The notes under the pieces were generated by a model, which worked only from the letters and a program-made list of their open reading frames with translations, ran no database searches and was not told the DNA's origin. Positions 27,485 to 41,912 of a stretch of DNA of 47,021 nucleotides are shown here, piece by piece. Made by a program: the position numbers and the translations under genes. The DNA comes from Streptococcus mitis (GTDB taxonomy: Bacteria > Bacillota > Bacilli > Lactobacillales > Streptococcaceae): contig NZ_KQ970285.1 in assembly GCF_001579035.1 (NCBI RefSeq), positions 210,199-257,219 on the forward strand, in the 5' to 3' direction. Position 1 is the first letter of the stretch, and every line of letters begins with the position of its first letter.

Positions 27485-27500
27485 AATCATCAATTTTGTT

Positions 27501-27587
27501 GAGTGTTATGATGATGGAGTCTTGTGCTCTTAGTCTAGCTCTGGTCTACCGCTAGGATTTCGGTCCTAGCGGGAACACTCATCATAA
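27501..27587 (+). promoter_or_regulatory. Structured region with two alternative pairings after rplQ
   Basis: A strong hairpin CCGCTAGGA/TCCTAGCGG (27549-27557/27564-27572) is enclosed by two partly exclusive outer stems: GAGTGTT/AACACTC (27501-27507/27574-27580) and TTATGATGA/TCATCATAA (27506-27514/27579-27587). It lies ahead of the final terminator. Confidence 0.5.
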
Positions 27588-27600
27588 GTTGGGATAGTAG

Positions 27601-27657
27601 ACGCTTGTTTACGAAATTGTTTTTTGCTTAAGAACAACTTCGTAAGCAGGCGTTTTT
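27601..27657 (+). terminator. Terminator of the ribosomal supercluster
   Basis: A long stem (ACGCTTGTTTACGAA...TTGTT with AACAA...TTCGTAAGCAGGCGT) is followed by TTTTTGAG. It is the strongest terminator after rplQ. Confidence 0.85.
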
Positions 27658-27677
27658 GAGTATTTTCGTTAGAATTA

Positions 27678-27686
27678 TGCTATACT
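27678..27686 (+). promoter_or_regulatory. Extended -10 promoter of the ACT/DUF711 operon
   Basis: TGC-TATACT (27681-27686) is an extended -10 without a clear -35, 62 bp upstream of the ACT gene. Confidence 0.6.
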
Positions 27687-27748
27687 ATTTGAAAAGAATC
27701 CTGTTTAATGTTCAGGTTTCCTATTAAAAGAAGAATTGGAGTTTGCTT

Positions 27749-28015
27749 ATGAAAGCGATTATAACTGTTGTTGGTAAAGATAAATCTGGAATTGTTGCAG
27801 GTGTTTCTGGCAAAATTGCAGAATTGGGTTTGAACATAGACGATATTTCTCAAACTGTCTTAGATGAATATTTCACGATGATGGCTGTTGTCTCTAGTGA
27901 TGAAAAGCAAGATTTTACTTATCTGCGAAATGAGTTTGAAGCTTTTGGACAAACTTTGAATGTAAAAATCAATATTCAGAGTGCAGCGATTTTCGAAGCT
28001 ATGTATAATATCTAG
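27749..28015 (+). CDS. ACT domain protein (UPF0237)
   Basis: The 88-residue protein is a single ACT domain (MKAIITVVGKDKSGIVAGVSGKIAELGLNIDDISQTV), the UPF0237 type related to glycine-cleavage regulator GcvR. ACT domains bind amino acids and regulate partners. ATG 27749 is preferred to the TTG at 27743 for spacing to TTGGAG. The DUF711 gene follows within 9 bp, and the pair is conserved in many Firmicutes and archaea, suggesting a joint role that is not yet known. Confidence 0.9.
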   Translation: MKAIITVVGKDKSGIVAGVSGKIAELGLNIDDISQTVLDEYFTMMAVVSSDEKQDFTYLRNEFEAFGQTLNVKINIQSAAIFEAMYNI

Positions 28016-28024
28016 GAGGTGCAC

Positions 28025-29362
28025 ATGGATATTAGACAAGTTACGGAAACTATCGCCATGATTGAGGAGCAAAACTTCGATATTAGAACCATTACCATGG
28101 GAATTTCCCTTTTGGACTGTATCGATCCAGATATCAATCGTGCTGCGGAGAAAATTTATCAAAAGATTACGACCAAGGCGGCTAATTTAGTGGCTGTTGG
28201 GGATGAAATTGCAGCTGAGTTGGGAATTCCAATCGTTAATAAGCGTGTATCGGTGACTCCTATTTCTCTGATTGGGGCAGCGACAGATGCGACGGACTAC
28301 GTGGTTCTGGCAAAAGCGCTTGATAAGGCTGCGAAAGAGATTGGTGTGGACTTTATTGGTGGTTTCTCTGCCTTGGTACAAAAAGGTTATCAAAAGGGAG
28401 ATAAGATTCTCATCAATTCTATTCCTCGTGCTCTGGCTGAAACGGACAAGGTCTGCTCGTCAGTCAATATCGGCTCAACCAAGTCTGGTATCAATATGAC
28501 GGCTGTGGCGGATATGGGACGAGTTATCAAGGAAACGGCTAATCTATCAGATATGGGAGCGGCCAAGTTGGTTGTGTTCGCTAATGCTGTTGAGGACAAT
28601 CCATTTATGGCTGGTGCCTTCCATGGTGTTGGGGAAGCAGATGTTATCATCAATGTCGGAGTTTCTGGTCCTGGCGTGGTCAAGCGTGCCTTGGAAAAAG
28701 TTCGTGGACAGAGCTTTGATGTAGTAGCAGAAACAGTTAAGAAGACTGCCTTTAAAATCACTCGTATCGGTCAATTGGTTGGTCAGTTGGCCAGTGAGAG
28801 ACTGGGTGTGGAGTTTGGTATTGTGGACTTGAGTTTGGCACCAACTCCTGCGGTTGGAGATTCTGTGGCACGTGTCCTTGAAGAAATGGGGCTAGAAACA
28901 GTTGGTACGCACGGAACGACGGCTGCCTTGGCTCTCTTGAATGACCAAGTTAAGAAGGGTGGAGTGATGGCCTGCAACCAAGTTGGTGGTTTGTCTGGTG
29001 CCTTTATCCCTGTTTCTGAGGATGAGGGTATGATTGCGGCAGTGCAAAATGGCTCTCTTAATTTAGAAAAACTGGAGGCCATGACGGCTATCTGTTCTGT
29101 TGGTTTGGATATGATTGCCATCCCAGAAGATACACCTGCTGAGACCATTGCGGCTATGATTGCGGATGAGGCTGCAATTGGTGTCATTAACATGAAAACA
29201 ACAGCTGTACGTATCATTCCCAAAGGAAAAGAAGGCGATATGATTGAGTTTGGTGGTCTTCTTGGTACAGCTCCAGTAATGAAAGTCAATGGAGCTTCGT
29301 CTGTTGATTTTATCTCTCGTGGAGGACAAATCCCAGCACCAATTCATAGTTTTAAAAATTAA
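28025..29362 (+). CDS. DUF711 / UPF0210 family protein
   Basis: The 445-residue protein is a DUF711 (UPF0210) member, sometimes labelled PFL family because its fold resembles pyruvate formate-lyase, but no catalytic role is established. Conserved stretches include [47 protein letters not shown] and the C-terminal [14 protein letters not shown] 28025 follows a perfect AGGAGGT. It is coupled to the ACT gene upstream. No signal peptide or membrane segment. Confidence 0.88.
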
Positions 29363-29377
29363 GAAAATAGGAGAAAT

Positions 29378-29415
29378 TTTAAGTTCTATTTAAGGTTGGA
29401 TGTGTATACTATAAT
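29378..29415 (+). promoter_or_regulatory. CiaR-regulated promoter
   Basis: TTTAAG (29378-29383), TTCTA, TTTAAG (29389-29394) is exactly the direct repeat TTTAAG-N5-TTTAAG bound by CiaR in pneumococcus. A -10 TATACT at 29405-29410 lies 10 bp downstream (alternative TATAAT 29410-29415), the spacing expected for Cia-dependent promoters. Confidence 0.88.
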
Positions 29416-29416
29416 C

Positions 29417-29567
29417 ATTAAATAAAGACCTCCTAATATTATTTGAAACAGATAACACTGATTTAGTTTGAATTTGATTTTCATCTAATATCTTTATTTA
29501 ATAGAACTCCTAAACTTTTTCATAATAATCTCCTGCAAAAGTCGCCTGTCTGGGTGGCTTTTGTTTT
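29417..29567 (+). ncRNA. ccn: csRNA (Cia-dependent small RNA)
   Basis: Transcription from the CiaR promoter would give an RNA of about 145-150 nt ending at the terminator AAAAGTCGCC/GGTGGCTTTT with its T tail (29537-29567). A perfect 12-bp stem ATTAAATAAAGA/TCTTTATTTAAT (29417-29428/29491-29502) and three unpaired anti-Shine-Dalgarno-like CTCCT patches (ACCTCCTAA, ACTCCTAAAC, ATCTCCTGC) match the known csRNA design, in which such patches pair with target ribosome binding sites. Exact start and which ccn paralogue are not determined. Confidence 0.82.
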
Positions 29568-29575
29568 ATCATCCA

Positions 29576-29584
29576 TGATATAAT
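29576..29584 (+). promoter_or_regulatory. Extended -10 promoter of the phosphoglycerate mutase family gene
   Basis: TGA-TATAAT (29579-29584) lies 23 bp before the start codon, immediately after the csRNA terminator. Confidence 0.6.
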
Positions 29585-29606
29585 AGAAGCAAATGGAGGA
29601 CGGAAA

Positions 29607-30299
29607 ATGGTAAAAGTACGATTGTATTTGGTACGTCATGGCAAGACCATGTTTAACACGATTGGTCGCGCGCAAGGTTGGAGCGATACTCCCTTAACAA
29701 CTGAAGGTGAACGAGGGATTCAAGAGTTAGGAATCGGTTTGCGAGAATCTGGTCTGCAGTTTGAGCGTGCTTATTCGAGTGATTCTGGGCGCACCATTCA
29801 GACAATGGGAATTATCCTTGACGAGCTTGGCTTGCAGGGAAAAATTCCTTATCGCATGGACAAGCGGATCAGAGAATGGTGTTTTGGTAGCTTTGATGGA
29901 GCTTATGATGGTGATCTTTTCATGGGCATTATTCCTCGTATCTTTAATGTGGACCATGTTCACCAATTATCTTATGCTGAACTGGCTGAGGGCTTGGTAG
30001 AGGTCGATACAGCTGGTTGGGCTGAAGGCTGGGAAAAACTCAGTGGCCGAATCAAGGAAGGTTTTGAAGCGATTGCCAAAGAAATGGAAGAACAAGGTGG
30101 AGGCAATGCTCTCGTTGTCAGCCATGGAATGACCATTGGAACCATTGTTTATCTGATCAATGGTATGCATCCACATGGTCTCGATAATGGTAGCGTGACG
30201 ATTCTTGAATATGAGGACGGTCAGTTTAGCGTTGAGGTTGTTGGTGACCGTAGTTACCGAGAACTAGGACGTGAGAAGATGGAGGAAGCCTCTATTTAA
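29607..30299 (+). CDS. Histidine phosphatase / phosphoglycerate mutase family protein
   Basis: The 230-residue protein has the RHG motif (LVRHGKTMFN, catalytic His about residue 11), SDSGRTIQT and the second His in VVSHGMT. This is the histidine-phosphatase superfamily; many members are broad phosphatases rather than glycolytic mutases, and the inserted region DGDLFMGIIPRIFNVDHVHQ is unlike GpmA. No operon partner is obvious. A BOX element begins at its stop codon. Confidence 0.88.
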   Translation: MVKVRLYLVRHGKTMFNTIGRAQGWSDTPLTTEGERGIQELGIGLRESGLQFERAYSSDSGRTIQTMGIILDELGLQGKIPYRMDKRIREWCFGSFDGAYDGDLFMGIIPRIFNVDHVHQLSYAELAEGLVEVDTAGWAEGWEKLSGRIKEGFEAIAKEMEEQGGGNALVVSHGMTIGTIVYLINGMHPHGLDNGSVTILEYEDGQFSVEVVGDRSYRELGREKMEEASI

Positions 30300-30495
30300 T
30301 ACTCTTCGAAAATCTCTTCAAACTGTGTCAACGTCGTCTTGCCGTAGATATGGTTACTGACTTCGTCAGTTCTATCCACAACCTCAAAACAGTGTTTTGA
30401 GCTGACTTCGTCAGTCTTATCTACAACCCCAAAGCAGTGCTTTGAGCAACCTGCGGCTAGTATCCTAGTTTGCTCTTTGATTTTCATTGAGTATA
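30299..30495 (+). repeat. BOX element (boxA-boxB-boxC)
   Basis: The region begins ATACTCTTCGAAAATCTC and ends TTTGATTTTCATTGAGTAT, the well-known boxA and boxC ends of the pneumococcal BOX repeat. Between them are the boxB-type GTTACTGACTTCGTCAG and CCTCAAAACAGTGTTTTGAG hairpins. It starts at the last base of the phosphoglycerate mutase family stop codon. The short ORF on the minus strand inside it is an artefact of the repeat. Confidence 0.93.
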
Positions 30496-40622: not shown

Positions 40623-41912
40623 ATGGCAAAGATGGATGTTCAGAAAATCATTGCACCAATGATGAAATTTGTGAATATGCGTGGTATTATAGCTCTAAAA
40701 GATGGTATGTTGGCTATTTTACCATTAACAGTAGTTGGAAGTTTATTCTTGATTATAGGGCAATTACCCTTTGAAGGATTGAATCAAAGTATTGCTAGTG
40801 TATTTGGGGCAGACTGGACAGAGCCTTTTATGCAAGTCTATTCAGGAACTTTTGCTATTATGGGTCTAATTTCTTGTTTTTCAATTGCCTATTCTTATGC
40901 TAAGAATAGCGGAGTAGAGGCATTGCCAGCTGGGGTTCTTTCTGTATCTGCATTCTTTATTTTGCTAAGATCATCTTATATCCCTAAACAAGGTGAGGCG
41001 ATTGGAGACGCTATTAGTAAAGTTTGGTTTGGAGGCCAAGGAATTATCGGTGCTATCATTATAGGTTTGGTAGTAGGAAGTATTTATACCTTCTTTATAA
41101 AGAGAAAAATTGTTATTAAGATGCCAGAACAAGTTCCACAAGCTATTGCCAAACAGTTTGAAGCAATGATTCCAGCATTTGTAATTTTCTTATCTTCTAT
41201 GATTGTATATATTTTAGCGAAGTCATTGACTAATGGCGGAACATTTATTGAAATGATTTATTCTGTTATTCAAGTTCCATTGCAAGGTTTAACTGGATCT
41301 TTGTATGGTGCGATTGGAATTGCCTTTTTCATATCATTTTTATGGTGGTTTGGTGTCCATGGACAATCGGTAGTAAATGGAGTAGTGACAGCTCTGCTTT
41401 TATCTAATCTTGATGCTAATAAAGCTATGTTAGCCTCTGGTAATCTATCATTAGAAAATGGTGCACATATTGTTACTCAACAATTTTTAGATTCATTTTT
41501 AATTCTATCAGGTTCAGGGATTACGTTTGGTCTTGTAGTTGCCATGCTTTTTGCAGCAAAATCAAAACAATACCAAGCCTTAGGGAAAGTAGCAGCTTTT
41601 CCAGCAATATTTAACGTAAATGAGCCAGTTGTATTTGGATTTCCGATTGTCATGAATCCAGTTATGTTTGTACCTTTCATTCTTGTTCCTGTACTTGCAG
41701 CTGTTATAGTATATGGAGCTATTGCAACAGGTTTCATGCAGCCATTTTCAGGAGTTACATTACCTTGGAGCACCCCAGCTATTATATCAGGATTTATGGT
41801 TGGTGGATGGCAAGGAGTTATTACTCAGCTGGTGATATTAGCGATGTCTACATTAGTTTATTTCCCATTCTTTAAAGTACAGGATCGTTTAGCTTATCAG
41901 AATGAAGCATGA
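40623..41912 (+). CDS. PTS lactose/cellobiose-family IIC permease
   Basis: The 429-residue membrane protein has about ten transmembrane helices, the WWFGVHGQSVVNGVV motif and NEPVVFGFPIVMNP, both typical of cellobiose-type IIC (the conserved His and Glu lie here). ATG 40623 follows AAAGGAG; the ATG at 40599 overlapping IIB is less likely. It would import a sugar or polyol-like substrate phosphorylated at C6. Substrate is inferred from context to be an anhydrohexitol. Confidence 0.9.
   Translation: MAKMDVQKIIAPMMKFVNMRGIIALKDGMLAILPLTVVGSLFLIIGQLPFEGLNQSIASVFGADWTEPFMQVYSGTFAIMGLISCFSIAYSYAKNSGVEALPAGVLSVSAFFILLRSSYIPKQGEAIGDAISKVWFGGQGIIGAIIIGLVVGSIYTFFIKRKIVIKMPEQVPQAIAKQFEAMIPAFVIFLSSMIVYILAKSLTNGGTFIEMIYSVIQVPLQGLTGSLYGAIGIAFFISFLWWFGVHGQSVVNGVVTALLLSNLDANKAMLASGNLSLENGAHIVTQQFLDSFLILSGSGITFGLVVAMLFAAKSKQYQALGKVAAFPAIFNVNEPVVFGFPIVMNPVMFVPFILVPVLAAVIVYGAIATGFMQPFSGVTLPWSTPAIISGFMVGGWQGVITQLVILAMSTLVYFPFFKVQDRLAYQNEA

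Follow-up and report, generated by a model that had tools for sequence, protein, structure and literature searches.

The small RNA csRNA5, published also under the names CcnE, F7, SN35 and srn061, is one of five csRNAs that are all predicted to bind comC. Its gene was recorded as F7 between SP0239 and SP0240 in S. pneumoniae TIGR4 (PMC3395615), SN35 has the same SP0239/SP0240 location (PMC2887815), and in strain D39 ccnE occupies positions 212734-212881, a length of 148 nt (PMC6212727). That csRNA5 contains an insertion exceeding 50 nt has already been described (PMC4211561). Northern blots have detected the RNA in S. pneumoniae and, as csRNA5(B6), in S. mitis B6 (PMC3091779 for the latter). 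Within the group of five, csRNA5 is the weakest repressor of comC, and it raises early competence promoter activity, an effect left unexplained (PMC4507080, also the source of the comC prediction). The literature further associates csRNAs with autolysis, lung infection and zinc tolerance (PMC8186281, PMC11478796), and the exonuclease Cbf1 binds the RNA (PMC7196914).

The window analysed here is a stretch of 47,021 nucleotides from Streptococcus mitis, in which a csRNA gene and its CiaR-type promoter occupy positions 29378-29568 (Table 1). The gene is csRNA5/CcnE, already known in pneumococcus and close relatives. The locus is almost certainly ccnE, the strain belonging to the cluster of S. mitis, S. 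pneumoniae and S. pseudopneumoniae; CiaR would activate the gene, and its RNA would repress comC among others and raise the competence threshold. As a gene it extends by one strain an sRNA family already linked in the literature to competence, autolysis, zinc tolerance and infection. Added interest comes from the loop specific to csRNA5, whose role the published work leaves unexplained and for which a BOX origin is likely but unproven.

Identity, setting and predicted structure of the gene

A sequence-only reading of the window had placed a full csRNA gene between a DUF711 gene and a gpm-like gene, and Pfam matches bear out both neighbours. We take these neighbours to be the counterparts of SP0239 and SP0240 of TIGR4. 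The product of the gpm-like gene falls under the cut-off for all 19 listed NCBIfam families, GpmB among them. No listed open reading frame of at least 60 amino acids overlaps 29378-29568 on either strand. The remark that standard gene finders miss the gene can stand for protein-gene callers only, because the Rfam covariance model csRNA (RF02379) scores it at 71 bits, above the curated gathering cut-off of 57.

Table 1. Features of the ccnE locus and its neighbours, in window coordinates
Feature	Position	Strand	Remarks
DUF711 gene	28019..29362	+	Left neighbour; PF05167, 620 bits; position of SP0239 in TIGR4
CiaR direct repeat TTTAAG-TTCTA-TTTAAG	29378..29394	+	Exact match
-10 hexamer TATACT	29405..29410	+	10 nt past second TTTAAG; spacing as in PMC3091779
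csRNA5/CcnE RNA	29417..29564	+	Rfam RF02379 29417-29564; 148 nt to end of terminator stem, 151 nt including T run
Stem 1, 5' arm	29417..29428	+	Predicted fold; 12-bp perfect stem with 29492-29503
First anti-Shine-Dalgarno patch CCTCCTAA	29429..29436	+	Predicted unpaired
55-nt insertion	29437..29491	+	Absent from same-slot short homologues; 3' part like boxC end of BOX
Stem 1, 3' arm	29492..29503	+	Predicted fold
Single-stranded linker	29504..29534	+	csRNA nonamer (CTCCTAAAC), CAT (anti-AUG), CTCCT twice; predicted to pair with comC
Intrinsic terminator	29535..29568	+	Stem 29535-29564, 13 pairs
Histidine phosphatase / gpm-like gene	29607..30299	+	Right neighbour; PF00300, 119 bits; position of SP0240 in TIGR4

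The identity of the gene is supported by several features. Alignment with the pneumococcal ccn genes, which the same reading had proposed as a check, gives 147 identical positions of 148 with two named S. pneumoniae loci of the csRNA5/CcnE type (L047 and L052), and csRNA5 of a B6-like genome is identical at 146/148. In the B6-like genome the positions of csRNA1, csRNA2 and csRNA3 agree within a base with those printed for S. mitis B6, and the RNA start at 29417 corresponds to 1944227, the printed begin of csRNA5(B6) (PMC3091779). The length of the RNA lies in the range of about 146-151 nt that marks csRNA5, as does the 55-nt insertion in a class characterized by one of more than 50 nt, and its place between DUF711 (SP0239) and the gpm-like gene (SP0240) is that of csRNA5. 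Together with the Rfam score, the promoter and the structure, this upholds the proposal of a full csRNA gene, albeit one previously described. Five csRNA genes, the window copy included, lie above the Rfam cut-off in the genome.

The structural elements named by the sequence-only reading are likewise present, namely a perfect 12-bp internal stem, three CTCCT anti-Shine-Dalgarno patches (at 29430, 29507 and 29530) and a terminator, which is the single one found in 29300-29700, where shuffles give a mean of 0.1. Folding of the RNA gives z = -4.28, a stability that none of 200 shuffles equals. In the predicted structure a 5' stem-loop and the intrinsic terminator flank an unpaired linker, and this linker carries, after the first stem-loop, the nonamer of the form [A/C]UCCUAAA[A/C] and an anti-start CAU. 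Among seven distinct short hairpins, which represent a few paralogues and relatives and in which the collecting pattern itself largely determined the innermost pairs 9-11, both partners change in 4 of the 11 pairs of stem 1, and a single cell of the 77 lacks pairing.

The flanking DNA (27601-30300) has 94-97% identity to pieces of 13 named loci from S. pseudopneumoniae, S. mitis, S. pneumoniae and other streptococci, with the best full-length match, 96.1%, to S. pseudopneumoniae (L048). A phage origin of the csRNA locus was considered and set aside, as a phage collection gave no match. Upstream, an L17 ribosomal protein downstream element (RF01708) is found at window positions 27500-27572 with 73.7 bits. 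Just where the gpm-like gene ends, at 30299-30494 with boundaries set by eye, there is a reverse-orientation repeat element that we take to belong to the BOX family, a name that fits PMC3049150. A 63-amino-acid open reading frame on the - strand (30296-30487) falls nearly entirely inside this element and is probably spurious.

The loop insertion and its resemblance to BOX repeats

The DUF711 protein is present in 92 of 98 genus genomes, and 70 of the 92 DUF711-gpm slots were examined, as 30 loci and 40 stretches. Sixteen slots hold the long form, 20 a short form that is without the insertion, and 34 no csRNA by a pattern that would miss csRNAs with a diverged promoter. Full-length matches to the long form occur in 40 of 284 genus genomes, the window's own included. 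Since long and short natural alleles thus occur in the same chromosomal slot, the role of the loop can be tested by comparing them. In 6 of the 16 long-form slots, recognized from the positions of the matches, the csRNA is displaced by 1.5-1.6 kb from DUF711, with its promoter retained. The content of this gap was seen in one of the six, the B6-like genome, where an open reading frame for a probably secreted protein of 498 amino acids lies between DUF711 and ccnE (L059, 235-1731, reverse complement).

The 3' part of the 55-nt insertion matches BOX elements of its own genome. The best outside match has E = 4e-4, and a BOX end is visible in 13 of the 15 stretches fetched from that similarity search. 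A 17-nt core, GTTTGAATTTGATTTTC, is common to the insertion and the boxC end, along with flanking bases. The boxC 3' end is thus found in the insertion, the last 9 bases of which diverge from the BOX terminus. At the other end the likeness to boxA is weak, with 11/20 positions matched and 217 of 5000 shuffles as good. Both BOX modules at full length span at least 104 bp in elements of the same genome, and the insertion has 55 bp; it was accordingly rejected as a BOX element proper and would be at most a remnant.

The resemblance was scored against two sets of repeats. Against the BOX elements of its own genome, a set that had been collected by similarity to the insertion itself, the insertion reaches a best local score of 43, contributed by one element (the other elements shown give 35-36), and this score is attained by none of 2000 shuffles (maximum 31) and none of 2000 window 55-mers. 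Against 13 BOX repeats found otherwise, a set that included csRNA6-type inserts and whose best forward match is a repeat in L053, the score is 34, with 0/1000 shuffles and 1/1000 window 55-mers as good. The rival account, in which the loop is an unrelated expansion, keeps a substantial though minority probability. It would accommodate the confinement of the good match to the 3' part, the 217 of 5000 shuffles that equal the boxA likeness, a length about half that of the commonest BOX in the genome (104 nt), the circular origin of the first set and the single window 55-mer that does as well against the second. Less readily does it account for scores that shuffles equal against neither set and window 55-mers do not equal against the first, or for the position of the match, which is terminal in the BOX as well as in the insertion. 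That the 3' part of the csRNA5 loop insertion derives from a BOX repeat, of which it would be a remnant, is on this comparison moderately supported.

A related arrangement is found in csRNA6-type genes, which are equated with csRNA6 of S. oralis Uo5 by total length and position rather than by the Uo5 sequence. In three genomes (L043/L193, L190 and L191) the hairpin 1 loop of such a gene holds an insertion of 103 nt, in the place that the csRNA5 insertion occupies. These make up three of the six stretches fetched to look for them; by the search pattern, L192, L194 and L195 have no csRNA6-type insertion gene. The L193 insertion, the one copy tested, matches a reverse-orientation BOX over its length with a score of 82, against a shuffle maximum of 29 (0/1000).

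A broader picture can be drawn tentatively, and we regard it as possible rather than probable. The csRNA5 loop insertion would be a decayed BOX within the hairpin of a regulatory RNA, and in related species the csRNA6-type sister RNA would have received a second BOX, oppositely oriented, at the corresponding site. Diversification of the sRNA family would then be the work of mobile repeats, and the insertion would explain why csRNA5 acts on competence in a partly positive way. PMC4863584 describes islands that have integrated at csRNA genes. Among the matches listed from the csRNA, CiaR and BOX literature, in the portions of text available and with the original csRNA papers outside that scope, none states that the csRNA5 insertion is a BOX remnant, and the main text of a survey of pneumococcal repeats (PMC3049150) is without csRNA, sRNA or ccn. 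The BOX likeness of the csRNA5 insertion appears to be unreported in the literature searched.

Proposed CiaR control and predicted pairing with comC

The direct repeat and the correctly spaced -10 that the sequence-only reading had pointed out are both in place, in the arrangement of csRNA promoters, where NTTAAG-N5-TTTAAG lies 10 nt before the -10 region. Taken alone, TTTAAG-N5-TTTAAG has four exact matches in the whole genome against three for the reversed control pattern, a chance level at which the repeat by itself was dropped as evidence. The composite of repeat and -10 exactly 10 nt further on is found once in the window and in none of 100 shuffles, and genome-wide it has six matches against none for the reversed pattern. 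Five of the six precede the five csRNA genes that exceed the Rfam cut-off. The sixth (L068; G000 C2:207321) is near an IspD/TarI-like gene, named by eye, and probably lies in the lic region, which is CiaR-stimulated (PMC8317062).

Of the eight Trans_reg_C loci in the genome, one encodes a response regulator with the helix VVEVYVSKIRKKL and is followed by a histidine kinase gene. It was recognized as CiaR by this helix, which PMC3091779 gives as the recognition helix of CiaR from several streptococci. No NCBIfam model named CiaR is among the 25 listed of 89 families, and a PDB search with the protein returned only other response regulators (8 sequences). In S. oralis Uo5, a strain without csRNA5, the ciaR mutant no longer makes any csRNA (PMC3091779), and CiaR dependence of csRNA5 in pneumococcus is cited in PMC4507080.

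The proposed mechanism is as follows. CiaR would bind the TTTAAG repeat and activate transcription from about 29417, giving an RNA of about 150 nt that would end at the terminator at 29535-29568. Unpaired CCUCC/CUCCU-CAU stretches would then pair with Shine-Dalgarno and start-codon regions, that of comC among them, and this pairing would block translation and thereby make competence harder to reach. By analogy with published work on other strains, the csRNA5 of the window is expected to be transcribed, to depend on CiaR and to act as a repressor.

Pairing between the linker and the comC start region of this genome is predicted at -19.2 kcal/mol, which is matched by none of 2000 shuffled comC start regions and by 2 of 2000 shuffled linkers. 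Target prediction with the CTCCT patches had been suggested, and for the linker, which holds two of them, comC ranks second of 32 start regions (31 window genes and comC). A PTS EIIC-like gene start at window position 40623, the gene being named by eye, ranks first with -24.2 kcal/mol, better than comC, and the anti-Shine-Dalgarno patches pair with many start regions. The suggested action on competence through comC pairing is published for the family (PMC4507080), with csRNA5 the least effective member. Given this weak repression and the stimulation of early competence promoters, the main role of csRNA5 may be something other than restraining competence. The idea that the insertion hides the pairing region and so weakens the repression of comC is not supported, since the linker is predicted to be unpaired at 0.94 in csRNA5 as against 0.79 in csRNA1, and the first patch at 0.97 as against 1.0.

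Among 54 long-form loci, which are not all from distinct genomes and count the window's own twice, the variable columns number 2/17 in the direct repeat (both in the N5 spacer), 1/24 in stem 1, 5/55 in the insertion, 1/31 in the linker, 6/34 in the terminator, 4/22 in the downstream spacer and 12/15 in the upstream spacer. The constancy of linker and stem 1 beside the adjacent upstream spacer, together with the expression and reported phenotypes of pneumococcal csRNA5 (PMC8186281, PMC3395615), makes it very improbable that this is a csRNA pseudogene whose promoter and RNA are retained through recent ancestry and serve no function, even though the insertion may derive from a mobile repeat and single ccn deletions including that of ccnE are without significant virulence effect in D39 (PMC11478796). 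Hardly any weight can be given to the idea that the stretch merely supplies the DUF711 gene with a 3' untranslated tail or a terminator. The CiaR repeat does follow the stop codon of that gene after a spacer of only 15 nt, and no terminator other than 29535-29564 was found in 29300-29700, but the csRNA has a CiaR promoter of its own and keeps it in the six genomes with the 1.5-1.6 kb displacement, in one of which the 498-amino-acid frame intervenes.

The locus among known csRNAs and repeats

A csRNA5/CcnE gene is the reading that best describes the locus, and its nearest relative is csRNA5/CcnE of S. pneumoniae (F7, SN35, srn061), which has the same neighbours and, in D39, the same length; the one base that differs lies in the terminator loop. 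Next comes csRNA5(B6) of S. mitis B6, verified there by northern blot, which has the same start and structure but differs by two bases; in the B6-like genome csRNA5 is set apart from DUF711 by an insertion of 1.5 kb. The other csRNA genes of the same genome, presumably csRNA1-4 by position and sequence type, likewise have hairpin 1, an anti-Shine-Dalgarno patch, a nonamer-like stretch, a terminator and a CiaR promoter, but are without the 55-nt loop insertion. BOX elements of the A1C1 form share the 17-nt core of their boxC end with this insertion, which differs from them in being 55 rather than about 104 nt long and only weakly similar at its left end. Finally, csRNA6 of S. oralis Uo5, represented here by the three csRNA6-type genes, has, like csRNA5, an insertion in the loop of hairpin 1, and at the same site. 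In contrast to the csRNA5 insertion, that of the tested csRNA6-type copy is a full-length BOX in reverse orientation, and in the one genome compared (G067) about 11 kb separate the gene from the DUF711-gpm slot.
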